From assembly GCA_030685015.1 (NCBI GenBank), contig JAUXWS010000019.1:1-64000 (forward strand): DNA of 64,000 bases, read 5' to 3'. Position 1 is the first letter of the stretch. Each line of letters starts with the position of its first letter. The notes under the pieces are model-generated. The model was not told the origin of the DNA and made no database searches. It saw only the letters and a program-made list of their open reading frames with translations. The position numbers and the translations under genes were made by a program. Of this stretch, positions 49,384-64,000 are shown piece by piece. This DNA is from a bacterium. GTDB taxonomy: Bacteria; CAIWAD01.

Positions 49384-51849
49384 TCACACATCCAGCTTGA
49401 TGATCGTCACCCCGTCGCCGCCCTCCTCGGGCTGCCCGTCGCGGAAGCTGAGCACGAGGGGCGTCCGCCGCAGGTGGTCCTGCACCACCTGGCGCAGGAC
49501 GCCCGTCCCCTTGCCGTGCAGGATGGTGGCGAAGCCCAGTCCGCTCACGAGGCAGTCGTCCAGGTAGGCGTCCAGGTCGGCGAGGGCCTCGTCGGCGCTG
49601 CGGCCACGCAGGTCGAGGCGCAGGCCGGGATCGCTCGTCGTCACGCTGACGCCGCCCCGCCCCCCGGCGTCGCGGCCGCCCGCTTTCCCGCCGCGCTCCT
49701 CGGCCAGCACCTCCAGCACGCGGTCGCGATCAACCGTCAGCTTGAGGATGCCGGCCTCCACCTGCAGGCGCGCCCCCTCCTTCTCGACCCGCACGACGCG
49801 GGCGGGTGTCTCCAGATCCTTGAGACGGACACGATCCCCCGGTTTGAGGGGGCCGCTGACCCGTGCCGGCGGCGCGGGCGGGGCCAGTTGCCGCTCCTGC
49901 CGCTCAAGCTGCTGGAGGTGGTCGGCGATCACCATCCGTCCCGCCTGGACCGTCACCCGCTCGGCGCCGCCCTGGCGGATCTCGCGCACAGTGTTCTCCA
50001 CCAGGCGACCCGCGCCCTTGACGATGCGGGCCGCCTCGGCCACCGCCTCGTGCTTCAGCTGGCGGGCCTCCTTCTGGGCCGCCTTGAGCTTCTCCTCGTA
50101 GCGGGCGACCAGGCTCTCCAGCTTGATGCGCGCCGCCTCGGCGGACTGGCGGTCCCGCTCCGCCGCCGCGGCCCGCGCCTGCAGGTCGCCGATCAGCCGC
50201 GCCAGGTTCTTCTGCTCGCTGCCCAGGTAGTGGCGGGCGCGGTCGAGCAGCACGCGCGGCATCTCCATCCGCTGCAGGATCTCCAGGGCGTAGCTGGAGC
50301 CGGGCACGCCCTGCACCAGGCGGAAAGTGGGGGAGATGCTGCGCTCGTCGAAGCTCATGGAGGCGTTCTGCAGGCCCGGCTGGTCATGGGCGAAGGCCTT
50401 GAGCTGGCCCAGGTGGGTGCTGACCACGGTCAGGCCGGGGCTGAGCAGCATGCGCTCCAGGAAGGCCATGGCCACGGCGCTGCCCTCCTCGGGGTCGGTG
50501 CCGCTGCCCAGTTCGTCCACCAGGAAGAGTCCGCGGCGCGGGGCCTGCTCGAGGATGATGCGCATGCGGGCCAGGTGGCTGGCATATGTGGAGAGGTCGT
50601 TCTCGATGGATTGCTGGTCCCCGATGTCGGTCAGCACCGTGTCGAAGAGGGGAATGCGCGTGCCCTCGCCACAGGGCAGGGGGAGGCCCAGCCGCGGCAT
50701 CAGGGCGAAGAGACCCACCGTCTTCATCGCCACGGACTTGCCGCCGGCGTTGGGGCCGGAGATGAGCAGGATGCGGTTGCCGCCGCCGCCCAGCCGCAGG
50801 TCAAGGGGCACCACCTCGAGATGGCGGGCCAGCAGGGGGTGGCGCCCCTGGACAATGACCAGATCCATGCCGTCGGCCAGGGCGGGGACGCAGGCCCCCA
50901 GATCGCGGCCCCAGCGGGCGCGGGCCTTGAGATGGTCCAGTTCGCGCAGCACGCGGCGCGTCTCCGCCAGCTCCGGCAGGCGTTCCCGCAAGCGGTCGGA
51001 CAACTCGCGCAGGATACGCGCCTCCTCGCGGCGGATCTCCACCTCGGCCCGGCTGAGGCGGGTGCGGATCTCCAGACAGGAGGCGGGCTCCACGAAGAGG
51101 GTACGCCCGCTCTGGCTCTGGTCCACCACCAGCCCCTGGACGCGACCCAGGGCCCCGGCATTGACCGGCAGCACGGGCCGGCCCTCCCGCCAACCCAGGC
51201 CCGTGTCGCCCAGCAGGCCGCGCCCGCGCCATTCCGTCTCCACCTTCTCCAGTTCGCGGCGCAGACGGCCCTCCTCCGCGACGTACAGGCGGCGGAGGCG
51301 GCCCAGTTCCGGCGAGGCCGAGTCGAGCAGACCGCCATCCTCGCCGATGGCGCGACGAATGGCCGTCGTCTCCCCTTCGAACGAGGCCAGTCCCGCCATC
51401 AGCTTGCCCAGGCGCGGCGCCTGGGCATCGTGCGAGCCTTGGGCCAGTCCGCCGCCCACCTCCAGCAGGGCCGCCACATCCCGCAGGGCAGGACCCTCCA
51501 GCCAGTCGGGGCTTTCCAGGAGGGCATCGAGCGGGGCCTCGCCCGTTTCCAGGACGCCCAGCGCCGGCGCGACTCCGCGCTCGAGGGCATTCATCATTTC
51601 GCCCAGGCGGGCCAGATCCAAGCGCAGCTCCGCCTCGTCCTTGATCGGTCCGGCCGCGCGCAGGCGTGCCGCGGCCGCCCGGCTGACGGCCCGTTCGGCC
51701 ACCCAGTCCAGCAGGCGATCCAGGTCCAGCACCTGGCGGGTGGCTTCTGTCAGCAGGTCGCAGGGCGGTCGGCGCCGGTCCTCGCCGCCTCGACCGTGCC
51801 GCCCCTCCCGTCGGTGGGATGGTCGGGAGGGCCCGCCGGACGGGGCCAT
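49384..51849 (-). CDS. mutS2: Endonuclease MutS2
   Basis: A protein of about 821 residues. The MutS-type ATPase has LISGPNAGGKSVAMKT near residue 370, DELGSGTDPEEGSA and STHLGQLKAF. A central coiled coil and a C-terminal Smr nuclease domain (LDLRG and HGKGTG) complete the family layout. MutS2 acts in recombination control and in splitting collided ribosomes. The start is uncertain: ATG at 51849 adds a Gly/Arg/Pro-rich leader of about 40 residues, while GTG at 51732 gives the length of family members but lacks a clear binding site. Confidence 0.9.
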   Translation of the reverse strand: MAPSGGPSRPSHRREGRHGRGGEDRRRPPCDLLTEATRQVLDLDRLLDWVAERAVSRAAAARLRAAGPIKDEAELRLDLARLGEMMNALERGVAPALGVLETGEAPLDALLESPDWLEGPALRDVAALLEVGGGLAQGSHDAQAPRLGKLMAGLASFEGETTAIRRAIGEDGGLLDSASPELGRLRRLYVAEEGRLRRELEKVETEWRGRGLLGDTGLGWREGRPVLPVNAGALGRVQGLVVDQSQSGRTLFVEPASCLEIRTRLSRAEVEIRREEARILRELSDRLRERLPELAETRRVLRELDHLKARARWGRDLGACVPALADGMDLVIVQGRHPLLARHLEVVPLDLRLGGGGNRILLISGPNAGGKSVAMKTVGLFALMPRLGLPLPCGEGTRIPLFDTVLTDIGDQQSIENDLSTYASHLARMRIILEQAPRRGLFLVDELGSGTDPEEGSAVAMAFLERMLLSPGLTVVSTHLGQLKAFAHDQPGLQNASMSFDERSISPTFRLVQGVPGSSYALEILQRMEMPRVLLDRARHYLGSEQKNLARLIGDLQARAAAAERDRQSAEAARIKLESLVARYEEKLKAAQKEARQLKHEAVAEAARIVKGAGRLVENTVREIRQGGAERVTVQAGRMVIADHLQQLERQERQLAPPAPPARVSGPLKPGDRVRLKDLETPARVVRVEKEGARLQVEAGILKLTVDRDRVLEVLAEERGGKAGGRDAGGRGGVSVTTSDPGLRLDLRGRSADEALADLDAYLDDCLVSGLGFATILHGKGTGVLRQVVQDHLRRTPLVLSFRDGQPEEGGDGVTIIKLDV

Positions 51850-51866
51850 GGCCGAAGGGTCGCGGC

Positions 51867-52313
51867 TCACAACCCGAACTGCCGGAAGTGATGGCGCAGG
51901 TGGCGATCCTGCAGGGCGGCCCATTGCAGGCGGGTCAAGGATCCAAAGACCGGATGGCCATGGCGGGCGGTGGGATCGGCCAGAACCTCGCGATGAAAGC
52001 GTCTGAGCAGGCCGCGGAGGCCATCCAGCGCGGCGGGGAAGGGCTCGCCGCGCGCAGCCAGGAAGTCCACGGTGGAGGGCAGGCCCGGCGGGATGGGCCA
52101 GGGAAGCAGTGCCACTGGCCGCAACAAGATCTGAAGGAAATGAGGCGCAAGGGGTTTGGCCTGGCGCAGGCCCATGGCGATCTCCAGGGAATTGGCCAGG
52201 TGCTCCACCATGCCCAGGGCGGTCAGCCGTCCCCAGCGCGGACGCCGCCCGTCTTCCAAACCGGCCAATCGGGCAAAGGCCCACTCCACTCGGGAGGAAT
52301 CAATCAGGCTCAT
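51867..52313 (-). CDS. DUF1569 (DinB-like) protein
   Basis: A 148-residue protein with the DUF1569 pattern. It has GMVEHLANSLEIAMG and the C-terminal HPVFGSLTRLQW and HLRHHFRQFG. The fold is a four-helix bundle with three metal-binding histidines, as in DinB proteins. Function is unknown. It ends 18 bases before the mutS2 start. The start at 52313 is the only one that fits the family. Confidence 0.8.
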   Translation of the reverse strand: MSLIDSSRVEWAFARLAGLEDGRRPRWGRLTALGMVEHLANSLEIAMGLRQAKPLAPHFLQILLRPVALLPWPIPPGLPSTVDFLAARGEPFPAALDGLRGLLRRFHREVLADPTARHGHPVFGSLTRLQWAALQDRHLRHHFRQFGL

Positions 52314-52568
52314 GGCAGGAGCATAACATTGCCCGACGAAGGCATCCCGTCTCACCGCCCGGCGCACAACATCCCTTTGTGACAATAATGGCGGGAAATG
52401 AGCCGGAATTCAAACCAAGGCATGAGTTCATAATCGCCGCACCGTCAAATCGTAATCATCCACCCTTATCCTGAAGCTCAGTTCAAAGGTGAGAGGGCCG
52501 CTCGCGGCATGATGCTGACGACGTCGTGGCCGGAGCTACCCGGCAGCCTGGAGGGCAGGGAGGTGGAT

Positions 52569-52787
52569 ATGGGGAAAAAGGATGATCTCCCTCCCGACCC
52601 GGGACGGATCGATCTCCGCCAGGAGTTCGAGGTCATGATGGCCAGGCTGGAGCAGCAGCGGGAAGACTTGGCGTGGCTAATCGAATTGAAAAACAAAGAG
52701 AAAGCTCCGCCACCGACGGTGCGGAGCATCACGTCGCCGGCTGACGACGAGGCCGGGCCTGACCTGACTCAAGACCGGGCGACATGA
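52569..52787 (+). CDS. Small hypothetical protein with coiled-coil segment
   Basis: A 72-residue acidic protein. Residues 15-47 are helical and charged (QEFEVMMARLEQQREDLAW), with a proline-rich tail. GGGAGGTGG lies just before the ATG. No family is recognised. A minus-strand terminator-like hairpin sits inside it, which lowers confidence. Confidence 0.4.
   Translation: MGKKDDLPPDPGRIDLRQEFEVMMARLEQQREDLAWLIELKNKEKAPPPTVRSITSPADDEAGPDLTQDRAT
52690..52727 (-). terminator. Terminator-like hairpin on the minus strand
   Basis: On the minus strand GCTCCGCACC pairs with GGTGGCGGAGC (one bulge) around GTC, followed by TTTCTCTTTGTTTTT. No minus-strand gene lies upstream of it, so it would end antisense transcripts coming from the protease region. 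Confidence 0.5.
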
Positions 52788-53039
52788 AGTCTTGCCATCG
52801 GCAGGCAAATCCTGTGTCTCGTGTGACACAAGGTCTCAGCGCATCGTCCAAATATGTACTCGGCAAAGCAGAGAATTCCCTTGGATGAATTCATGAAGCT
52901 GTTTATCATCCCACAGGATCGGCCTGACTCCGATCCAGCGACACCTGACATGACCATCAGCAACCATAGATCTGCATCCAGGCGCAGGGGCTTGACAGCT
53001 TTGCAGGCCAATGCCGGGGTGCCCACTGCAGGAGGATTC

Positions 53040-53483
53040 ATGAGGAAAGCACTCTGGTTGGCGCTCGTGCCGGCCCTGCTCTTCGCATCCAGCGATCCGA
53101 CCGAGCCGGCCGACACGCCGGGGGCGGTCGCCCCCGCCCACAGCGGGATCGCCGTGGTCGCGCCCCTGGCGCCCAGCGCCGTGGATCTGGCCCACAAGGA
53201 GGCCATGATGGCTCTGGCCCTGGAACGACAGGCCTTCGTCGAGGCCTTCAACTGGAACCGGGGCGGTGATCGGGTCGAGACGGCCCGCCTCCATGCCCGC
53301 GCCATGGACGGCTTCCACCGCCGGGAGCTGGAGCTGAAGCGCGACTGGTACGCGGCCAGCGGCCAGCTTGATCGCCTCGCCGCGATCGAGGCCGCCCTGG
53401 TGGCCCTGGAGGAAGCCGGGCGCCCGCAGCCCGAATTGGATCTGCCGCGCCCGGCGGCCCAACCACAGGAGGTGACCCCATGA
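53040..53483 (+). CDS. Cassette 1 protein A: small secreted helical protein
   Basis: A 147-residue protein with a signal peptide (MRKALWLALVPALLFAS). A Pro/Ala-rich linker follows, then a helical domain with LERQAFVEAFNW and RRELELKRDWYAASGQLDRL. The same pattern is found in the A proteins of cassettes 2 and 3 and nowhere else in the window. GGAGGATTC precedes the ATG at 53040. The stop overlaps gene B by ATGA. I do not recognise a family. A role as chaperone, inhibitor or binding partner of the protease is inferred from linkage. Confidence 0.75.
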   Translation: MRKALWLALVPALLFASSDPTEPADTPGAVAPAHSGIAVVAPLAPSAVDLAHKEAMMALALERQAFVEAFNWNRGGDRVETARLHARAMDGFHRRELELKRDWYAASGQLDRLAAIEAALVALEEAGRPQPELDLPRPAAQPQEVTP

Positions 53484-53980
53484 CCCGCATCGTCCTGGGT
53501 GGCCTGCTGGCCGCCCTGACCCTTGGCCTCGGCGCGATGGCCGAGGAGCGCCGCGTGGATGACGGCATCTACACGCTCGGCGAGGCGGCGGAGCCCACCC
53601 TGGTGCCCGCCGCCCAACTGGTGGAATCCCCCGCCAGCGGATCGCCCCCGGTCGAGTCGGGTCCGCTGGCCGAGCTGCGCGAGCGGCACCGCGCCGCGAT
53701 GGAGGCCCTTATCTCCAGCCCGGACGCCGTGCGCGACCACGGGCAGGTCCTTGCCATGGAGCGGGAGCTTGTGGCGCTGAAGGAGGCCCAGCAGCGCGAG
53801 GAGCTGCTGTGGCTCAAGTCCGACGCCCTGGCCCGTGGGGACCAGGCCCTGGCCGCACGCCTGGACGAGGCGCTGGAGGAGCTGACACCGCGGATCCTGC
53901 CGCCCGCCGGGCCGGCCGTCCCGCGGGATCCGGCCACGGGCCGCACCCTGGACGGCCGTGACGAGGGAGGTGTGAGATGA
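53480..53980 (+). CDS. Cassette 1 protein B: small secreted helical protein
   Basis: A 166-residue protein. A signal peptide (MTRIVLGGLLAALTLGLGAMA) is followed by a conserved N-terminal motif EERRVDDGIYT, a helical middle (LAELRERHRAAMEAL; EAQQREELLWLKSDALARGD), and a conserved C-terminus PRDPATGRTLDGRDEGGVR. That last stretch encodes the ribosome binding site of the protease gene (GAGGGAGGTG), which may explain its conservation. It overlaps the protease start by ATGA. No known family is recognised. Paralogue of the gene at 58835. Confidence 0.75.
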   Translation: MTRIVLGGLLAALTLGLGAMAEERRVDDGIYTLGEAAEPTLVPAAQLVESPASGSPPVESGPLAELRERHRAAMEALISSPDAVRDHGQVLAMERELVALKEAQQREELLWLKSDALARGDQALAARLDEALEELTPRILPPAGPAVPRDPATGRTLDGRDEGGVR

Positions 53981-56900
53981 ACAAGCTGTTGATGACATCC
54001 CTGCTGGCGCTGGGTCTGATGGCCACCAGCGCCCTGGCCCTGCGCGACCTCTCCCTCAAGCAGCAGGGGGAGCTGCCCCGCGACCAGTACGTGGACCTGG
54101 TGGATCCCGACCACGTCCACCTGGACAAGCTGGTGGTGAAGTTCGTCGAGGACACGCGCGTGCGTCTGCGCGACGGCCGCCTTGTCTCCCTGGAAGGATG
54201 GCGCACGGACGCCCTGGAGGCCTTCCTCAAGGCTCGGCCGCACCTCTCCGTCGAGCGCCTCTTCTCCAGCGTGGGCGAGGAGGAGCTGGAGGCCTACATC
54301 GCCCGGGGTGAACAACTGAGCGGCTACGATGTGGCCGATCTCAACAACTGGTACCTCTTCCGCGTGGACGACCGACGTGTGGACGCCAAGGGCCTGCTGC
54401 TGGATCTGCTCCAGCTGGACCTGGTGCAGACCGGCTACTACGAGCCGAAGGGCGAGCCTGCTGTGTGCGGGACGGACCCCGCCCCCACCACCCCCAACTA
54501 CGTGGGCAGCCAGGGCTACCGCGGCGCGGCGCCCACGGGCGTGGACATCCAGTACGCCTGGGACTACAACCCCACCTACGGCAATGGGATCAGCAGCTAC
54601 TGGTTCCAGGACATGGAGGTGGGGTGGTGCGAGGACCATGAGGATTTCGCCAGCACCTTCACCATCCGCAACCCGCCGGACTCCGATGTCCCCGACTATT
54701 ACAACCACGGCACGGCCGTGATGGGGATCGTGGGGGCCTGCGACGACGGCAAGGGCGTCACCGGCCTGGTGCCCGACGTGCGCCTCACGGCCCGCACCGT
54801 CCTCAACCACAGCTCCTATGCGGACGCCCTCATCGCCATCGGCAATGATTTGGTGACGGGTGAGACCTACCTGATCGAGCTGCATGCCCAGGGTCCGGAC
54901 CAAGGCACCACCTGCGTCTGCAACTGCGCCCAGTTCCGCTACATCGCCATCGAGTACTGGCAGGGCAACTTCGACGCCATCCTGGCCAACAGCGCCAACG
55001 GCCGATACTGCGTGGAGGCGGCGGGCAACGGCAGCATGGACCTGGACTGGGCCGGCTACAGCGGCGCCTTCAACCGCTCCTTCCGCGACAGCCAGGCCAT
55101 CATCGTGGGGGCTGGCACCTCGGGCAGCGTCCACAACCCGGAGTGCTGGACCAACCACGGCACCCGCATCGACGCCTACGGCTGGGGCAGCAACGTGGTC
55201 ACCACCGGCTACGGCACCCTCTTCAACCAGGCCGACTGCCAGCAGGACTATGCCAGCGGCTTCGCCGGCACTTCCAGCGCCAGCCCCATCGTGGCAGGGC
55301 CGGCCGTCAGCCTGGCCCTGATCCACAACGCGCAGTTCGGCAGCTACCCCGCGCCCCTGACCCTGCGCAGCCGCCTGCAAACCAACGGCACGCCCCAGGG
55401 ACCGGTGGACACCTGGAAGGAACTCAGCGTCCAGCCCAACATGAAGGGCATCCTCGCCCCCGACCTGCTGCCCTACACGCCGGTCGACTGGAGCGCCAGC
55501 GTCGTGCCCTCCAATGTGACGGGCACAAATACCGTGTCCGCCAACCTGCCCCCGGCTCCGGCCGCCACCTACATCGACCTCTGCTTCCTCAACCAGAGCC
55601 GCTACGGCAGCGTGGCCTCCGCCCTCTCCCGGCTCTATCGGGATGACGTGTTCATCGGGTCCGCCACCGCCACCAACCTGGGACCCTTCACAAGCGCGGC
55701 GGCCAACGATTTTTCCCAGACCATCCGTGGCGGCCTCCATTACCTGAAACTGGTCTGCGATCCCCTAAGCGCCGTCGACGAGAGCGTGGAGACCAACAAC
55801 ACGGAGGTCCTCGCCTACTGCTGGGATCCCGCCATCCTGGCCATCAACAGCCCCCAGACCTTCACCCGCGGACCGAAGAAGAATCCCGAGGGATACTCCT
55901 CGTTTGCCCTGGACGGCTACCGCATGAGCACCACGGGGTGGTGGCGGGTCTTCGGCGTGATGCCGGCCTCTTCCGCCGGCGATTACGACCTGCGCCTTTA
56001 CAACACGGCGCCCACCTCCACCACGGGCTGGACCAGTCACGTCAGCTCGTCGTTACACTCGTCAGCCACGGACTTCGTGGGCAGCAACGGCAACCTGGTC
56101 TCCGACGGCATCCATGCCGGGGTGGTCAATCACAACGACACCAGCGATTCCTACACGGTGGAGTCCGACATCTCCAGCTACCTGGGATCCGTCCCGGCAA
56201 GCCAGGCTCTGGTGGGCAACTACAGCCTGGATGCCGGCGAGATCCTCGACGCCTTCGAGATGAACTGCACGGCCGGCTCCCCGGTGTGGCTGAACTTCCA
56301 GGTCACGGACGGCGCGGCCGACCTGGCCGTCCTCGTCTATGGACCCGGCACGACCTATTTCAGCCGGGACAGCGCCCTGTGGGCCTTGAATGCGGGTGGG
56401 GCCGGCGCCAGCGAGATGGGCATCTTCACGCCCGCGGAGAGCGGCTTCCACGGCATCGTCGTATGCAAGAACCTGCGCAGCGACCTGGCCAACCAAGTCT
56501 CTTACGACTTCTACTGGGGCCCCCCCGCCGGCGACCTCGTCACCGTGGCGCGGGCCAGCTGGACGGCGCCCGTGGTGGCGCGCAACAGTGGCGGCACAGT
56601 GGGCGCGCTGCCCGCCGTGCTCAATGAGGGTCCAAGCTTGGGCGACGCCGGCGTGGCCAACATCGGCCTGGGCAGCGTGCCAGCCGGGGCCAACCTGGCC
56701 ATCACCCTGGACGGGGTCACCGTCTACACCAGCGGAAACTTCGCCTCCCTGGCCCCCGGCTACGAGGGTGAGGTCGCCAACCGGTCCATCGGCGCGGTCA
56801 AGGGGGGCCGCCACGAGCTGGGCGCCATCCAGGACGTGAACAGCGAGGTGGCCGAGCAGCTGCCCGACGGCGAGGCCAACAACCGGCACTATCGGCAGTA

Positions 56901-58068
56901 CGCCTGGGCGCCCCACCCGCTGACCTTCGGAGTCCAGGAGTCCCGGACGGCGGCGCCCAACTACGTCAACCCCCAGAACCCGGACTACTGGAGCCAGCCC
57001 GGACCCAACCAGGACGGCTACCTCCTGTCCACCGCCTTCTGGACGGCCGTGGCGGCCATGCCCACCCATGCCGAGGGCTATCTGCCCACCTACATCTACG
57101 CCAACGCGGACACGAACCCCATTTCGGCCTACCTGTATCCCGTCGCGACCAACTATCCGCCCTACGGTGGCATCAGCCTGGTGGCCGCCAACGGCAACGT
57201 GCTGGGCAATGTCGTCCAGCGGAACGTGGGTGTGAGCAACGGCTGGGCCTATCCCACCCATTCCACGCAGCCCTACACTGTCCAGATGGCCCATTGGATG
57301 GACGACCTGGAGGCGGGACATGTCTACCCGGGCACCTTGGCCGCGGGCGCGGGTGGCGGGCAGCTGCTGCACATGCGGGACATGCACCTCTTCGCCGGTG
57401 AGAGCGTTTCCCTCAGGCTGTTCAACAACTCCACCGTGGACCTGGGCCTGGCCATCTTCCAGGCCGGCCTGGGCTACGCGACCTTGGACAACGCGGCGGC
57501 CGTCTTCAACGGCGCCGGCGTGGGTGTCGACGAGAGCGGCGCTTTCACGGCCACGGTGACGGGCTGGCATGGCGTGGCGGTCTACCGCAGCGGATACCAG
57601 GACCTGGGGCCGGCGGCGCCCTACAGCTTGGTCATGGGAACCCGGCGTCCGGTGGCCATCACCGACCTGGAGCTGATCCCCGTGGAGCTGGACGCCTCGG
57701 ACGGCTATTACCTCTTCACCCTGCAATTCGGCGACGTGACCCAGGATGTCAACGGAGATCCATTGGTCGTGGACTACTACCGCTTCTGGTGGAGCTTCGA
57801 CCCCTACGCGGAATTCCCCAACGGCTGGGTGAATTGGGACAACTGGCCGGTGAGCGAGCTGGTGAACTTCCTCTCCACCACGGGCGGAGCGACCGGCATC
57901 TACTTCCTGGTCACGGCGGTGGACAACAACGGCGTGCTGCTGGCCACCTCGCACCCGGACCTGGTGGGCGCCGCCGATGCGGAAGCCGTGCGCCGGGCAC
58001 CCCTGGCCGGCGGCATTCCGGGTCAGTCGCTTGGCGCGGGTGAAGCCGTGGACAGGCCCCTCCCTTGA
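53977..58068 (+). CDS. Cassette 1 large secreted subtilisin-fold serine protease
   Basis: A 1,363-residue secreted protein. A signal peptide (about residues 1-21, ending SALA) is followed by a 150-residue N-terminal domain, perhaps a propeptide, then an S8 peptidase domain. The triad is D212 (WFQDMEVGW), H244 (NHGTAVMG) and S433 (GTSSASPI), with N351 (AAGNGS) for the oxyanion hole. The C-terminal two-thirds are beta-rich: CARDB-like repeats near 528-608 and 868-971 (VDESVETNN, EQLPDGEANN), pre-peptidase-like domains near 744-841 and 1114-1208, and a last sandwich near 1227-1328. No type IX sorting tail is visible. Cysteines cluster around CVCNC. Confidence 0.87.
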   Translation: MNKLLMTSLLALGLMATSALALRDLSLKQQGELPRDQYVDLVDPDHVHLDKLVVKFVEDTRVRLRDGRLVSLEGWRTDALEAFLKARPHLSVERLFSSVGEEELEAYIARGEQLSGYDVADLNNWYLFRVDDRRVDAKGLLLDLLQLDLVQTGYYEPKGEPAVCGTDPAPTTPNYVGSQGYRGAAPTGVDIQYAWDYNPTYGNGISSYWFQDMEVGWCEDHEDFASTFTIRNPPDSDVPDYYNHGTAVMGIVGACDDGKGVTGLVPDVRLTARTVLNHSSYADALIAIGNDLVTGETYLIELHAQGPDQGTTCVCNCAQFRYIAIEYWQGNFDAILANSANGRYCVEAAGNGSMDLDWAGYSGAFNRSFRDSQAIIVGAGTSGSVHNPECWTNHGTRIDAYGWGSNVVTTGYGTLFNQADCQQDYASGFAGTSSASPIVAGPAVSLALIHNAQFGSYPAPLTLRSRLQTNGTPQGPVDTWKELSVQPNMKGILAPDLLPYTPVDWSASVVPSNVTGTNTVSANLPPAPAATYIDLCFLNQSRYGSVASALSRLYRDDVFIGSATATNLGPFTSAAANDFSQTIRGGLHYLKLVCDPLSAVDESVETNNTEVLAYCWDPAILAINSPQTFTRGPKKNPEGYSSFALDGYRMSTTGWWRVFGVMPASSAGDYDLRLYNTAPTSTTGWTSHVSSSLHSSATDFVGSNGNLVSDGIHAGVVNHNDTSDSYTVESDISSYLGSVPASQALVGNYSLDAGEILDAFEMNCTAGSPVWLNFQVTDGAADLAVLVYGPGTTYFSRDSALWALNAGGAGASEMGIFTPAESGFHGIVVCKNLRSDLANQVSYDFYWGPPAGDLVTVARASWTAPVVARNSGGTVGALPAVLNEGPSLGDAGVANIGLGSVPAGANLAITLDGVTVYTSGNFASLAPGYEGEVANRSIGAVKGGRHELGAIQDVNSEVAEQLPDGEANNRHYRQYAWAPHPLTFGVQESRTAAPNYVNPQNPDYWSQPGPNQDGYLLSTAFWTAVAAMPTHAEGYLPTYIYANADTNPISAYLYPVATNYPPYGGISLVAANGNVLGNVVQRNVGVSNGWAYPTHSTQPYTVQMAHWMDDLEAGHVYPGTLAAGAGGGQLLHMRDMHLFAGESVSLRLFNNSTVDLGLAIFQAGLGYATLDNAAAVFNGAGVGVDESGAFTATVTGWHGVAVYRSGYQDLGPAAPYSLVMGTRRPVAITDLELIPVELDASDGYYLFTLQFGDVTQDVNGDPLVVDYYRFWWSFDPYAEFPNGWVNWDNWPVSELVNFLSTTGGATGIYFLVTAVDNNGVLLATSHPDLVGAADAEAVRRAPLAGGIPGQSLGAGEAVDRPLP

Positions 58069-58087
58069 CCTTGATGCTTTCATCCAT

Positions 58088-58120
58088 GGCCCCCGATCCA
58101 GCCCGGATCGGGGGCCTTTC
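58088..58120 (+). terminator. Rho-independent terminator of cassette 1
   Basis: GGCCCCCGATCC pairs perfectly with GGATCGGGGGCC around AGCCC, followed by TTTCCC. It starts 20 bases after the protease stop. Confidence 0.85.
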
Positions 58121-58391
58121 CCATGGGCCGGCCTTCTGGCCTCTTCGTCATGGGTCGGCATTTCCTTCCAGGATACCCGACCCTGTGTCGGACACCTGTC
58201 CGGGCATTCATCCAATTTTCCAGCATTTTGATTTCTCTTGCAGCTCTTGCTGAACTCGTTTAACATCCCACACGCATCATAGCCCTTGTCAAAAGGGCGC
58301 ACACAGCATTGAGAAAACAACACACCGACGATTCCGCCGCGCGACGCAAGGCATTGGTCCGCACGGATGGTCGCCCCAGCAAGGAGGATCC
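58121..58391 (+). promoter_or_regulatory. Spacer and probable promoter region of cassette 2
   Basis: No gene is visible. It contains an element at 58177-58201: CCGAC, five bases, then GTCGGACACCTGTCC. The same 15-base end is found between cassettes 2 and 3. An AT-rich stretch (58205-58320) probably holds the promoter, and a small hairpin (GCCCTT...AAGGGC) lies near 58280. The likely leader is long. Confidence 0.5.
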
Positions 58392-58838
58392 ATGAGACAC
58401 GCATTCTGGTTGGCGCTCCTGCCCGGCCTGTTGTTCGCCTCCGGCGATCAGGCAAGGCAGGCCGACGCCCCGGGAGTGGCCGCGCCAGCCACTCCCGCCG
58501 CCACCGTGACGGCGCCGCCCCCGCCCCCCATCCCGGCGGACCTGGCCTGCAAGGAGGCGCTGGACGCCCTGGCCCTGGAGCGGCAGACTTTTGTCGAGTC
58601 CTTCGACTGGGGCCAAGCGGGTGATCCCGACGAGCTGGCCCGCCGCTACTCCCGCACCATGGACGACTTCGTCCGGCGGGAGCTGGAGATCAAGCGCGAC
58701 TGGTACGAGGCCACCGGCCAGACCGACCTGCTGGCGGGGGTTGAAGCCAGCCTGGACCGCCTCACCCAACCGCAGCGACTCCTGCCTGAGATCGAGCAGG
58801 AGCGCGGCACGCCCATCGCCCCGGAGGTGACACCATGA
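58392..58838 (+). CDS. Cassette 2 protein A: small secreted helical protein
   Basis: A 148-residue paralogue of the protein at 53040. It has a signal peptide (MRHAFWLALLPGLLFAS), a Pro/Ala linker, then LERQTFVESFDW and RRELEIKRDWYEATGQTDLL. Conservation is strong in the helical part and low in the linker. AAGGAGGATC precedes the ATG. It overlaps gene B by ATGA. The mature protein is presumably periplasmic or secreted; no lipobox is present. Confidence 0.77.
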   Translation: MRHAFWLALLPGLLFASGDQARQADAPGVAAPATPAATVTAPPPPPIPADLACKEALDALALERQTFVESFDWGQAGDPDELARRYSRTMDDFVRRELEIKRDWYEATGQTDLLAGVEASLDRLTQPQRLLPEIEQERGTPIAPEVTP

Positions 58839-59344
58839 GACGTTTCATTCTGGGCGGGCTGCTGGTCGCGTTGGCCACCGCCGTCCTGGCCCCCGCCGCC
58901 GGCGCCGAGGAGCGCCGCGTGGATGACGGGTTCTACACCATCGAAGAGCCGGCGGAACCCGCCGCGGCGGATCCCGCCCAGCTGGCGCCGGCCGCGGGCG
59001 ACATCCCCGCTCCCCTTGTACCCGCGCCGCTGGCCGAGGTGCGCCAGCGCCATCGCATCGAACTCGAGACGCTGACCGCCGGCCTGGCCGCCGCCCGCGA
59101 CCAGGCGGAGCGTGAATCCCTGGAGCGGCAGGCCATGGACCTCAAGCTCGCCCAGCAGCGCGAGGAGCTGCAGTGGCTAATGGCCGACGCCCTGGCCCGC
59201 GGCGACTCCGCCTACGCGGCGCAGTTGGGCGAGGCGCTGGACGCCCTGGTCCCCCGCCCCGCCCCGGTCCCCGTCACCTTGGTGCCCCGCGATCCCGCCA
59301 CGGGCCGCGCCCTGGACAGCCGTGACGAGGGAGGTGTGAGATGA
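58835..59344 (+). CDS. Cassette 2 protein B: small secreted helical protein
   Basis: A 169-residue paralogue of the protein at 53480. The motif EERRVDDGFYT directly follows the predicted signal peptide cleavage (AGA). The middle is helical (RHRIELETL; LAQQREELQWL), and the C-terminus PRDPATGRALDSRDEGGVR is nearly identical to cassette 1. It overlaps the protease start by ATGA. Function unknown; always between A and the protease. Confidence 0.77.
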   Translation: MRRFILGGLLVALATAVLAPAAGAEERRVDDGFYTIEEPAEPAAADPAQLAPAAGDIPAPLVPAPLAEVRQRHRIELETLTAGLAAARDQAERESLERQAMDLKLAQQREELQWLMADALARGDSAYAAQLGEALDALVPRPAPVPVTLVPRDPATGRALDSRDEGGVR

Positions 59345-62300
59345 ACAAGCTGTTGATGACATCCCTCCTGGCGCTGGGCCTCATGGCCACCAGCGCCCTG
59401 GCCCTGCGCGACCTCTCCCTCACGCAGCAGGGCGAGCTGCCCCGCGACCAGTTCGTCGACCTGATCAACCCCGACCACTACCGTCTGGATCTGCTGGTCG
59501 TCCAGTTCGTGGAGGACACGCGCATCCGATTGCGCGACGAGCAGCTGGTCTCCCTCGAAGGCCGCAATCTCTCCGCGGTGGACGCCTTCCTCAAGGCGCA
59601 TCCGGAGATCACCGTGGAGCGCCTCTTCCAGAGCATGGGAGAAGAGGAGCTGGACGCCTACGTGGCCCTGGGCGAGCAGCGCAGCGGCATCGACGTGGCC
59701 GACCTCAACAACTTCTACCTCTTCCGCGTGGACGGCCGCAACAGCGACGCCAAGGGCCTGCTGCTTGACCTGCTCAAAGTGGAACTGGTGCAGACCTGCT
59801 ACTACGAGCCCATCGGCCAGCCGGCCGTCTGCGGCAGCGATCCGGCGCCCGTCACGCCCAACTGGACGGCCAGCCAGGACTACCGCGAGGAGGCCCCCGC
59901 CGGCGTGGACATCCAGTACGCCTGGGCCTTCGATCCCACCTACGGCAACGGGGTCAGCAGCTACTGGTTCCAGGACTTGGAGTGGGGCTGGTGCGAGGAC
60001 CACGAGGACTTTGCCTCCACCTTCCTCATCCGCAACCCGCCCGACTCCGGGACTGCCGATTTCTACAACCACGGCACGGCGGTGATGGGGATCGTGGGCG
60101 CCTGCGACGACGGCAAGGGCATGACCGGCCTGGTGCCGGACGTGCGTCTCACTGCCCGCGTGGTGAGCAACCATGCCAGTTACGCCGACGCCCTCATCGC
60201 CATCGGCGGAGACCTGTTGCTGGGCGAGACCTACCTCATCGAGATCCACGCCCCGGGTCCCAGCCAGGGCACCACCTGCTATTGCAACTGCGACCAGTTC
60301 CAATACATCGCCATCGAGTACTGGACGGCCAACTACAACGCCATCCTGGCCAACAGCACCAACGGACGCTACTGCATCGAGGCCGCCGGCAACGGCAGCA
60401 TGGACCTGGACTGGGCCGGCTACGGCGGCGCCTTCAACCTGGGTGTGCGCGACAGCCAGGCCATCATCGTGGGCGCCGGCACCTCGGGCAGCGTGCACAA
60501 CCCGGAGTGCTGGACCAACCACGGCACGCGCATCAGCGCCTACGGCTGGGGTAGCGGCGTCTACACGACCGGCTACGGCTACCTCTTCAACCAGACGGAC
60601 TGCCAGCAGGACTACACCCATGACTTCGGCGGCACCTCCAGCGCCAGCCCCATCGTGGCCGGACCCGCCATCAGTCTGGCCCTCATCCACAACAACATGT
60701 ACGGCAACTATCTAGCCCCCAGCACGCTGCGCACACGTCTCGCCATCAACGGCACGCCCCAGGGACCGACCGATCCCTGGAAGGAGATCAACGTGATGCC
60801 CAACATGAAGGGCATCCTGGCGCCGGACCTGCGACCCTACCTTTATGGGGACTGGGTGGCCAACATCGTCCCCTCCGACGTGACGGGAACCCACACCCTG
60901 CCCGCCAACCTGCTTCCGGCGCCGGCGACCACCTATTTCGACTGGGCCTGGCACAACGCCGGATTGTACGGGGCGGCCTCGCCGGCCCGCGCCTACCTCT
61001 ACCAGGATGACGCCTACATCATCTACGCCTACAACAGCACGCTCAACCCCAACACCACGAGCAGCTACAGCGATTATGGCGTGGTGATGCGGGGCGGACT
61101 GCACTACATCAAGAACCAACTGGATGCGGACAACTTGGTCGACGAAAGTGTGGAGACCAACAACAAGCAGATCATCGCCTACCGCTGGGATCCGGTCGCA
61201 CTGGCGTCCAATGCGCCCCAGTCCTTCAGCCGCGGCCCCAAGAAGAATCCGGAGGGCTACAGCTTCTACGCCTCGGACGGCTATGGCAACGGCGGCGGCT
61301 TCCCGGGCTGGTGGGATGTCACGGGCGTGATGCCGGCCACGGGCACGGACTACGACATCTACCTGTTCAACGTGGACCCCACGCCCACTAACGGCTGGAC
61401 CACCACCGTGGCGGCCAGCGGCTCCGTCTCCGGCACGGACTTCGTGGGATGCAACAACAACACCACGACGGACGGCGATTTCACGGCGGTCATCAACTAC
61501 AACGACTCCGCCGAGGGCTACACGGTGGAGCGGGAGGGCTCCGTCTACCTGGGCAGCCCCCCCGCCACGCAGAGCTTGGTGGGCAACTACAGCCTGGCCG
61601 CCGGCGAGATCCTGGACGTGTGGGAGATCAACTGCACGGCGGGCACGCCGGTCTGGTTCAACTTCGTGGCCACGGGCGGCACGGCAGACCTCGCCGTCTT
61701 CATCTTCGGGCCGTCCGCCACCTACTTCTCCCGCGGCGGCGCCACCTGGACGCTCAACACGGGCGGCGCCGGCGCCAGCGAGATGGGCATCTTCACACCC
61801 ACCGCGTCCGGCTACCATGGCATCGTGGTGTGCAAGAACCTGGTCTACGACCTGGACGAGCACGTCAACTACAGCTTCTATTGGGGACCGCCCGCCGGCG
61901 ACTTGGTCACCGTGGCCCGCGCCGGCTGGACGGCGCCCGTGGTGGCGCGCAACAGCGGCGGCAGCGTGGGCGTGCTGCCCGCCGTGCTGAACGAGGGCCC
62001 CAGCCTGGGTGACGCCGGCGTGGCCAACATCGGGATGGGCACCACCCCCGCCGGTCCCAACCTGGCCTTCCACCTGGACGGACCTTTCGTCTACAGCAGC
62101 GGGGACTTCGGCGCCCTGGCGCCGGGCTACGAGGGCGAGATCAGCGGCCGCAGCATCGGCACGGTCAAGGGCGGACGCCACGAGCTGGGCGCCATCCAGG
62201 ACTACTTGGGCGAAGTGGCCGAACAGCTTCCCTATGGCGAGACCAACAACACCCATTACGAGCAGTACGCCTGGTCGCCCTTCGTGCCGACCAACCTGAC

Positions 62301-63402
62301 GCCATTCTCGCGTGCGGCAGCCCCCAACTGGCGAAACTTCAACAACCCCGGCAACTGGGACCTGCCCGGCTTCAACCAGGACGGTTATCGCATCACGACC
62401 AGCTACTGGACAGGCTTTGCCGCCATGCCCACCATCGCCACGGAGCAACTCAACGTCTGGTCCTACAACGACGCCCTCACGGGGTCGACCACGGCCTTCC
62501 TCACGACCGTCGAGTCCAACTTTCCCGGTCCGGGGAGCATCAGCTTCACCATGTTCAACGGCAACGTGCTGGGGAACGGCCTGCAGAGGAACGTGGGTGT
62601 TTGCAACAACTGGGCCTACCCCAACGTGACTCCCACCACGCCCTACACCGTGCAAGTGAGCCCGCGGCTGCAGGATCTGCAGGCGGGTTACATCGTGAAC
62701 GGCACCCTGGCCACGGGCGCGGGGGGCGGACAGCTGCTGCACACCTATGACATCTACCTGACCGCCGGGCAGAGCTACCAGCTCAACCTCTTCAACCGGT
62801 CCACCATCAACCTGGGGGCGGCCATCTTCCAGGCCGGGACATCCTTCAAGGGCCTGGACGACGCGGTGGCCGTCTTCAACGCGAACGGCGCCGGCCAACA
62901 TGAGTCCGGGACCTACATGGCGACGACCACAGGCTGGCACGGCGTGGCGGTCTACCGCAGCGGCTACCAGGACCTGGGACCCGCCGCCGACTACGGCATC
63001 GTGGCGGGCAACTGGCGCCCGGCCCAGCCGCTCATCATCACCTTCACGCCGGTGGATTTCAGCCCGGGCAACGCCACGGTCTACGCCGAGATCACGCCGG
63101 TGACGACGGACATCAACGGCAACCCGCTCGTCATCGACCACTACAACCTGTACTACGACGACGATCCCTACATGGGCTCGCCGGGAGTCCTGCCCACCAC
63201 GGCCACCAGCTGGTACCTCTACTACGGCAACGTCGGGATGCTGGAGCGAGGCTTCCTGCGCGTCACGGCGGTGGATAACAACGGTGTGCTGGTGGCGGAC
63301 AGCCATCCGCATCTGCCCTTGCCGGACCCCATGGCCATCCAGCAGTATCCCATCGACCTCCTCACGCCCCAACCGGCGGGAGGCAGTGCGCCCTCTGAAT
63401 AG
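59341..63402 (+). CDS. Cassette 2 large secreted subtilisin-fold serine protease
   Basis: A 1,353-residue paralogue of the protease at 53977, with the same signal peptide and the same catalytic positions: D212 (WFQDLEWGW), H244 (NHGTAVMG) and S433 (GTSSASPI). The first 433 residues therefore align without net length change. The C-terminal half has the same order of CARDB-like (VDESVETNN; EQLPYGETNN) and pre-peptidase-like domains but is more diverged, and the extreme C-termini differ completely. That suggests a shared catalytic unit with differing binding regions. The first 70 bases are almost identical to cassette 1. Confidence 0.87.
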   Translation: MNKLLMTSLLALGLMATSALALRDLSLTQQGELPRDQFVDLINPDHYRLDLLVVQFVEDTRIRLRDEQLVSLEGRNLSAVDAFLKAHPEITVERLFQSMGEEELDAYVALGEQRSGIDVADLNNFYLFRVDGRNSDAKGLLLDLLKVELVQTCYYEPIGQPAVCGSDPAPVTPNWTASQDYREEAPAGVDIQYAWAFDPTYGNGVSSYWFQDLEWGWCEDHEDFASTFLIRNPPDSGTADFYNHGTAVMGIVGACDDGKGMTGLVPDVRLTARVVSNHASYADALIAIGGDLLLGETYLIEIHAPGPSQGTTCYCNCDQFQYIAIEYWTANYNAILANSTNGRYCIEAAGNGSMDLDWAGYGGAFNLGVRDSQAIIVGAGTSGSVHNPECWTNHGTRISAYGWGSGVYTTGYGYLFNQTDCQQDYTHDFGGTSSASPIVAGPAISLALIHNNMYGNYLAPSTLRTRLAINGTPQGPTDPWKEINVMPNMKGILAPDLRPYLYGDWVANIVPSDVTGTHTLPANLLPAPATTYFDWAWHNAGLYGAASPARAYLYQDDAYIIYAYNSTLNPNTTSSYSDYGVVMRGGLHYIKNQLDADNLVDESVETNNKQIIAYRWDPVALASNAPQSFSRGPKKNPEGYSFYASDGYGNGGGFPGWWDVTGVMPATGTDYDIYLFNVDPTPTNGWTTTVAASGSVSGTDFVGCNNNTTTDGDFTAVINYNDSAEGYTVEREGSVYLGSPPATQSLVGNYSLAAGEILDVWEINCTAGTPVWFNFVATGGTADLAVFIFGPSATYFSRGGATWTLNTGGAGASEMGIFTPTASGYHGIVVCKNLVYDLDEHVNYSFYWGPPAGDLVTVARAGWTAPVVARNSGGSVGVLPAVLNEGPSLGDAGVANIGMGTTPAGPNLAFHLDGPFVYSSGDFGALAPGYEGEISGRSIGTVKGGRHELGAIQDYLGEVAEQLPYGETNNTHYEQYAWSPFVPTNLTPFSRAAAPNWRNFNNPGNWDLPGFNQDGYRITTSYWTGFAAMPTIATEQLNVWSYNDALTGSTTAFLTTVESNFPGPGSISFTMFNGNVLGNGLQRNVGVCNNWAYPNVTPTTPYTVQVSPRLQDLQAGYIVNGTLATGAGGGQLLHTYDIYLTAGQSYQLNLFNRSTINLGAAIFQAGTSFKGLDDAVAVFNANGAGQHESGTYMATTTGWHGVAVYRSGYQDLGPAADYGIVAGNWRPAQPLIITFTPVDFSPGNATVYAEITPVTTDINGNPLVIDHYNLYYDDDPYMGSPGVLPTTATSWYLYYGNVGMLERGFLRVTAVDNNGVLVADSHPHLPLPDPMAIQQYPIDLLTPQPAGGSAPSE

Positions 63403-63423
63403 AGTCCTCAACCAACAAACAGC

Positions 63424-63459
63424 GGCCGGCCCGGAAATCAATCTGGGCCGGCCTTTTTT
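63424..63459 (+). terminator. Rho-independent terminator of cassette 2
   Basis: GGCCGGCCC pairs with GGGCCGGCC, followed directly by six Ts. It begins 22 bases after the protease stop. Confidence 0.92.
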
Positions 63460-63475
63460 CGGCAAAATCTGCCGA

Positions 63476-63505
63476 GGTGTCCGACCAAGGGTCGGACACC
63501 TGTCC
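63476..63505. promoter_or_regulatory. Perfect palindrome between cassettes 2 and 3
   Basis: GGTGTCCGACC (63476-63486) and GGTCGGACACC (63490-63500) are perfect 11-base arms around AAG. The right arm is part of GTCGGACACCTGTCC, also found at 58187-58201 between cassettes 1 and 2. It may be an operator or an extragenic repeat. The rest of 63506-63777 is AT-richer leader and promoter space without a gene. Confidence 0.6.
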
Positions 63506-63777
63506 AGCCAACCTGACACCGTCTCATGTAATGCATCACGCCCGTTGTAAAATCAACAGAAAAACAGGTTCAGTTAATGCGATTGTTAGTTTAACTGTTT
63601 GATTTTCCCCCCTCAGCATGTAGCTTGCCGCCCATTCTCGACTGAACTGGTCCTCTTATGAGGAGCATTATCGGGAAGGATGCCGGTCCCCCAGCCGGCT
63701 GCAACACAGCACAACCGGAACATCATCATCAGCCGTCGCTCCGGAAGGGGCGTCCGGCCCATCCTGAAGGAGGAGTC

Positions 63778-64000
63778 ATGAAGCACGCAACTTGGATGGC
63801 CTGTGCCGTTCTGCTGGGCTTGTCCAGCGCCGGCCTCGCCGCCGAAGCGGACAGCCCGGGCCGCACGGAGGACGCCAACTTGACCGCCAGCGGCGTTCAC
63901 GCCATCCCACAGCCGGTCGTCGTTGCCGACAACCCGCACCAGCAGGCCATCCTGGCATTGCACCAGGAGCGGCAGGCCTACGTCGAGGCCTTCGACTGGA
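63778..64000 (+). CDS. Cassette 3 protein A (partial)
   Basis: The gene runs off the window after 74 codons. It has a signal peptide (MKHATWMACAVLLGLSSAG), a linker, and the A-family start of the helical domain (LHQERQAYVEAFDW). AAGGAGGAG precedes the ATG. It shows that the cassette array continues to the right with at least a third unit. B and protease genes are expected beyond the edge. Confidence 0.8.
   Translation, partial: MKHATWMACAVLLGLSSAGLAAEADSPGRTEDANLTASGVHAIPQPVVVADNPHQQAILALHQERQAYVEAFDW

Follow-up and report, generated by a model that had tools for sequence, protein, structure and literature searches.

Small exported helical proteins co-encoded with giant secreted enzymes appear to follow a non-catalytic module rather than the catalytic domain

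Dedicated helpers of exported enzymes are an already known kind of protein, represented by the accessory subunits of dentilisin, by ORF2 of Aeromonas, by the lipase-specific foldase (Lif) and, in the type IX translocon, by SkpA. In Myxococcus xanthus, the S8 protease PopC has a co-encoded partner or inhibitor, PopD. The secretion of PopC has been described (PMC6434023). In the three-gene dentilisin operon of Treponema denticola (prcB-prcA-prtP), two accessory exported proteins are encoded upstream of an S8 protease; PrcA and PrcB are lipoproteins that belong to one protease and are said to be exclusive to oral spirochaetes (PMC8167434). The Aeromonas S8 protease ASP likewise has a dedicated small partner encoded beside it, ORF2, whose gene lies downstream and whose C-terminus contacts the active site of the propeptide-deficient protease (PMC5638518). 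Lif is a helical periplasmic partner dedicated to a secreted enzyme and contains a disordered linker (PMC7046727), and SkpA, which belongs to the alpha-helical periplasmic chaperone type of Skp, is a part of the type IX translocon (PMC10994853). As a rule, each such helper is known from a single enzyme, whereas the family described here spans unrelated enzymes and distant lineages.

The window, i.e. the whole stretch of 64,000 nucleotides that was analysed, contains at its end an array of three-gene cassettes, each composed of two small genes (A and B) followed by a gene for a giant S8 protease (P). An earlier note on this DNA reported two full cassettes followed by the beginning of another, which was confirmed by the analysis of open reading frames and by alignment. 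The contig (C19) reaches position 75,972, beyond the window edge at 64,000, and its remainder was also read; this extension, recommended by the note as a way of counting the cassettes, completes the third one and yields exactly three, all in the same direction, with no fourth up to the contig end. The features are as follows:

A1, 53040..53483, + strand: predicted small exported helical partner of 147 aa, an ORF with a signal-like N-terminus; orthologues in G001, G003, G004 and G159.
B1, 53480..53980, + strand: predicted small exported helical-hairpin partner of 166 aa, a paralogue of A, with an ATGA overlap with A1.
P1, 53977..58068, + strand: secreted S8 protease of 1363 aa, recognised by Pfam Peptidase_S8 and CARDB, by the module HMM and by its triad.
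P1 module copy 1, 55462..56544, + strand: about 360 aa with CARDB-like and PPC-like jelly rolls, recognised by alignment, genome search and, for the C-terminal part, Foldseek.
P1 module copy 2, 56545..57651, + strand: recognised by the module HMM, alignment and genome search.
Intrinsic terminator after P1, 58088..58116, + strand: GGCCCCCGATCC-AGCCC-GGATCGGGGGCC followed by a T-rich stretch, read directly.
A2, 58392..58838, + strand: partner protein of 148 aa.
B2, 58835..59344, + strand: partner protein of 169 aa, with an AlphaFold model.
P2, 59341..63402, + strand: S8 protease of 1353 aa with two module copies.
P2 module copy 1, 60826..61911, + strand: recognised by the module HMM and genome search.
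P2 module copy 2, 61912..63018, + strand: recognised by the module HMM and genome search.
Intrinsic terminator after P2, 63424..63453, + strand: followed by TTTTTT, read directly.
A3, 63778..64239, + strand: the window holds only its start (63778..64000).
B3, 64236-64745, + strand: beyond the window, on the same contig.
P3, 64742-68791, + strand: beyond the window, on the same contig.

The ATGA overlaps by which the note saw A, B and the protease joined are present at all six A/B and B/P junctions, each of them 4 bases long, and a GGAGG-type Shine-Dalgarno sequence lies a few bases upstream of each overlapping start, inside the 3' ends of A and B, where it is preserved also in other lineages. 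A, B and P of each cassette are probably made in a translationally coupled manner, and the gene overlaps argue for matched amounts of the three products. The terminator placed by the note at the end of each cassette was found as well, in the form of a GC-rich hairpin and a T-rich run behind each of the three P genes. The suggestion of a multi-copy secreted system is in keeping with the three cassettes and with the identical gene order in other genomes.

The P proteins fit the Peptidase S8 family (Pfam 40-41 bits against a cut-off of 21.8; 2.6e-10 for P1), and the S8 domain is preceded by an N-terminal region of about 160 residues, which is likely to be a propeptide. The catalytic triad (D212/H244/S433) and the oxyanion Asn (N351) have identical residue numbers in P1 and P2, as had been claimed for the triad, but the numbers are shifted by 3 in P3. 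As judged from sequence, the similarity among the cassette paralogues is far beyond chance: in pairwise comparisons among the three cassettes, the P proteins are 61-67 % identical, the A proteins 40-54 % and the B proteins 40-57 %. When P1-P3 are compared by part, the identity amounts to 81-82 % in the S8 domain, 53-66 % in the modules and 32-61 % in the last domain; thus, the diversity sits in the non-catalytic half and in the partners. The note had ascribed it to the extreme C-terminus, which does differ, but the modules diverge too. The three copies may represent three related enzymes with different binding halves, in which one catalytic domain has been retained while the partners and modules diverge.

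A and B are themselves paralogous, which the note had missed; they belong to one helical-hairpin family (hhalign A-B 2.6e-8) and are related to partners found elsewhere (hhalign B-H 1.7e-11, A-H 2e-7), with the proviso that scores of this type between helical proteins may be inflated. The members of the family share a core of about 80 residues, in which the turn carries an almost invariant Gly. The AlphaFold model of B2, obtained with two homologues, comprises a signal helix, a disordered linker, a 59-residue helix (mostly with pLDDT above 90) and a short return helix. Signal-peptide-like N-termini are present in most members of the family, with AxA-type sites in B1 and B2, and inspection of the sequences revealed no lipobox Cys at the signal end in A or B. 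These predictions agree with the view in the note that A and B are secreted and helical, and its statement that they belong to no known family also stood: for A, B or their relatives there is no Pfam family over the cut-off, including PF03280 (lipase-specific foldase), OmpH and LTXXQ, and none in NCBIfam or PHROGs. A Foldseek search with the B2 model returned nothing significant (best E 1.7), and the PDB profile matches of A and B were discarded as generic helices. The C-terminal motifs EGG[VA][RK] (in B) and EV (in A) were rejected as functional elements, as they overlie the in-frame Shine-Dalgarno sequence of the next gene; such coincidence of conserved C-terminal residues with the ribosome-binding site is seen e.g. 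at 53463-53480 and 53960-53977, and in a distant lineage too.

The C-terminal half of the giants is made up of a beta module of about 360 aa, which is common to the partner-associated giants and occurs in one to three copies in the genes that were read through. In P1 the two copies span residues ~496-856 and ~857-1222, and three successive copies are found in G330:C11 and on the contig-cut G199:C131. The N-terminal part of the module is CARDB-like, and the C-terminal part resembles PPC/collagen-binding jelly rolls, the latter according to Foldseek; the AlphaFold model is weak in the first half (mean pLDDT 54), hence only the C-terminal jelly-roll match was used. Although domains of both the PPC and the CARDB type are present in the module, their fixed combination of about 360 aa differs from either; the positions W, GG.H, DG and W are invariant in it, and it matched no single Pfam family. 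The heads of the module-containing giants vary and include S8, M43, HEYGHHW, HEEGH and Vps10-type propeller domains, or no catalytic domain at all.

Mapping of the co-occurrence of A and B with S8 proteases, as proposed in the earlier note, revealed single-copy A-B-S8 cassettes with identical gene order in the related genomes G001, G003 and G004, and the same order in G159, outside the phylum. However, the claim that A and B are found solely together with the protease did not hold. In the lineage of the window, A/B-type genes are also found upstream of an M43 metalloprotease (G000:C39, G001:C238, G003:C75; G000 being the genome of the window), and elsewhere the partner precedes giants with the HEYGHHW motif (G029), a HEEGHSIGFLD protein (G197), giants with Vps10-type propellers (G330 and G199) and a protein composed only of modules and a type IX tail (G029:C275). 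A three-gene variant is seen in G197 (L110, 6057-6536), where an extra exported-looking protein of about 158 aa is encoded between the partner and the giant. A confident partner was found upstream of 21 of the 23 module genes with visible upstream DNA, the G197 gene being counted despite the one small gene in between; G330:C50 has a weak partner only (profile E ~0.1) and G330:C41 has no partner upstream. These module genes come from nine genomes (four from G000, two each from G001 and G003, one each from G004, G159, G197 and G199, eight from G029 and three from G330), which represent the class of the window and at least four families outside it. On the other hand, none of the 13 module-less S8 genes in G000 has a partner, nor do two module-less S8 relatives in G002 and G003. 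The presence of the family with M43, HEYGHHW, HEEGH, propeller and module-only proteins, together with the lack of A and B beside module-less S8 genes, indicates that the partner goes with the module and that the link detected by the mapping is not one to S8.

The search from the side of the partner gave a concordant picture. The partner profile has four matches in G000, all of them B genes that adjoin module giants, and in 11 genomes a module giant follows every match behind which the DNA is long enough for a verdict. Six matches had not contributed to the profile. Three of them lead to a module giant (G029:C164, G029:C275 with its modules only, and G199:C248, whose partner frame shares an overlap with the module contig G199:C51), G029:C128 lies ahead of a giant that is cut by the contig end and was identified by its N-terminus alone, and the remaining two sit at contig ends and were left out of the judgement. 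Of 386 genomes, 10 contain the partner and 10 the full module, nine genomes having both; the discordant pair, G002 with the partner alone and G340 with the module alone, are both broken at contig ends, and no clearly free-standing partner was found. As the profile was built from partners beside module genes, it may miss remote relatives elsewhere, and absence is to be read as absence at that sensitivity. A search of plasmids returned S8-domain matches only, at 24-36 % coverage.

On balance, we lean towards a periplasmic role of A and B in which, translated together with the giant, they escort the module or take part in its assembly rather than serving the catalytic head. In this scenario A and B, paralogous exported helical hairpins made with the giant in coupled translation, would attach to the module in the periplasm, maintain the giant in a soluble, export-competent state or aid its assembly, and hand it over to the route of export at the outer membrane, probably type IX or a system connected with it. 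The heads would be interchangeable: S8 here, and M43, other HExxH types or Vps10-type propellers elsewhere. We infer both this role and the stoichiometry of A and B to P within it. Among the functions listed in the note (chaperones, inhibitors or targeting partners), the association with the module makes escort or assembly more likely and inhibition of the protease unlikely.

As for the export machinery, SprA of the type IX secretion system (T9SS) translocon scores above the cut-off in all 11 genomes with the partner or the module, G000 included, and in 91 of the 386 genomes overall; the type IX tail domains number from 72 to at least 150 per genome in these 11, with 93 in G000. Some of the giants carry a type IX tail (in G029, and G330:C50), but the TIGR04183 (Por_Secre_tail) domain is absent from P1-P3 and from the M43 giant of the same genome, so that type IX is no more than a presumed export route for the giants in the window. 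The S8 and M43 module giants of G000 end in a different domain, which is present also on module-less S8 relatives and which is a possible alternative sorting domain.

As a still more speculative and rather doubtful extension, the helical proteins, as an escort family undescribed thus far, and the ~360-aa module could form a general export or assembly system of SprA-encoding bacteria. Any head fused to the module would then be served by a co-translated escort of its own, and the system may act as an alternative or additional targeting route for the giants without the type IX tail. Family libraries yielded no helper family that tracks a non-catalytic module from one unrelated enzyme to another, and searches of the open-access literature gave no description of a partner family of this kind. 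If the escort role is true, the helper and the module could serve to flag numerous giant exported enzymes that lack annotation, and could contribute to explaining the export of very large proteins, including those without a known sorting tail. For annotation there is also a rule: immediately behind an A/B-type gene of unknown function, a module protein is to be expected.

Alternatively, A and B might be permanent subunits of a mature surface enzyme complex, in analogy to PrcA and PrcB, rather than transient escorts. We regard this as unlikely, albeit as the most probable of the rival readings: the operon logic is that of dentilisin, with two accessory genes upstream of the S8 protease and, here, translational coupling; P3 exhibits a weak match to the PrtP model; and PrcB and PrcA remain with PrtP (PMC8167434). 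However, A and B lack the lipobox, are mutual paralogues and track the module on several enzyme types, and they match no dentilisin subunit in NCBIfam at E <= 1, a library that may lack a model for one or both of PrcA and PrcB. Moreover, the partners serve also non-proteases, which would make them subunits of the module and not of the protease. It is much less probable that A and B act like Aeromonas ORF2, as inhibitors or folding factors that guard the catalytic domain against self-digestion. S8 proteases with dedicated external chaperone-inhibitors do exist (PMC5638518), and all partners in the window accompany an S8 domain with an intact triad, but the partner is encoded upstream, in contrast to ORF2, and is independent of the protease class: instead of being dedicated to the S8 catalytic domain, the same family precedes M43 and other HExxH peptidases of unrelated folds, propellers and a module-only protein, whereas the 13 module-less S8 genes have no partner. 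In addition, P has its own N-terminal region, the putative propeptide. Inhibition was thus abandoned as the main reading, since the partner tracks the module across unrelated heads and even on a protein without a head.

The other known helpers differ from A and B as well. Lif is anchored in the membrane and has the lipase domain as its target, whereas A and B have cleavable-looking signals and no match to Lif; Skp is a trimeric chaperone that is not encoded with one client, and A and B match no Skp family; PopC and PopD form a single cognate pair with no tracking of a module. Finally, the linkage could be merely regulatory, with A and B being exported proteins with a function of their own that share an operon with the module giants. 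Linkage alone can indeed reflect a shared environment or regulation; here, however, it holds across distant families and different heads, with the same gene order and with close or overlapping junctions, and the partner is never clearly free-standing in the 386 genomes, which leaves this explanation with little to recommend it.

A comparison of seven sequences suggests, no more than tentatively, that catalytic heads are exchanged independently of the module and the partner. The S8 domain of G004 (L061) is 61 % identical to that of G159 (L111) and 39-40 % to those of the window, whereas its module (45-46 vs 31 %) and its B protein (30-35 vs 23 %) are closer to those of the window than to those of G159. 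The mirror-tree correlations are high for the partner-module and partner-catalytic pairs alike and thus do not discriminate between the module and the catalytic domain; besides, linked genes duplicate together, so co-divergence is no proof of contact.

In G002, a genome of the same genus, two B-like stretches (C246, L064) are located beside mutS2/DUF1569-type genes, as in the window at 49384-53000, and one of them runs on in a single frame into the following one, at the contig end. On the contig of the window, the array is followed by a RAYT-like transposase gene and other genes. The palindromic repeat TCCGACC-NN-GGGTCGGACAC occurs in the window at 63480-63499 and further along C19 at 68860-68879 and 69680-69699 (L018). 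As it flanks the transposase gene right after the array, the repeat and the transposase look like a REP/RAYT system. The genome contains 32 exact copies of this repeat, compared to 0 for the reversed control, often in inverted pairs about 187 bp apart and near contig ends.
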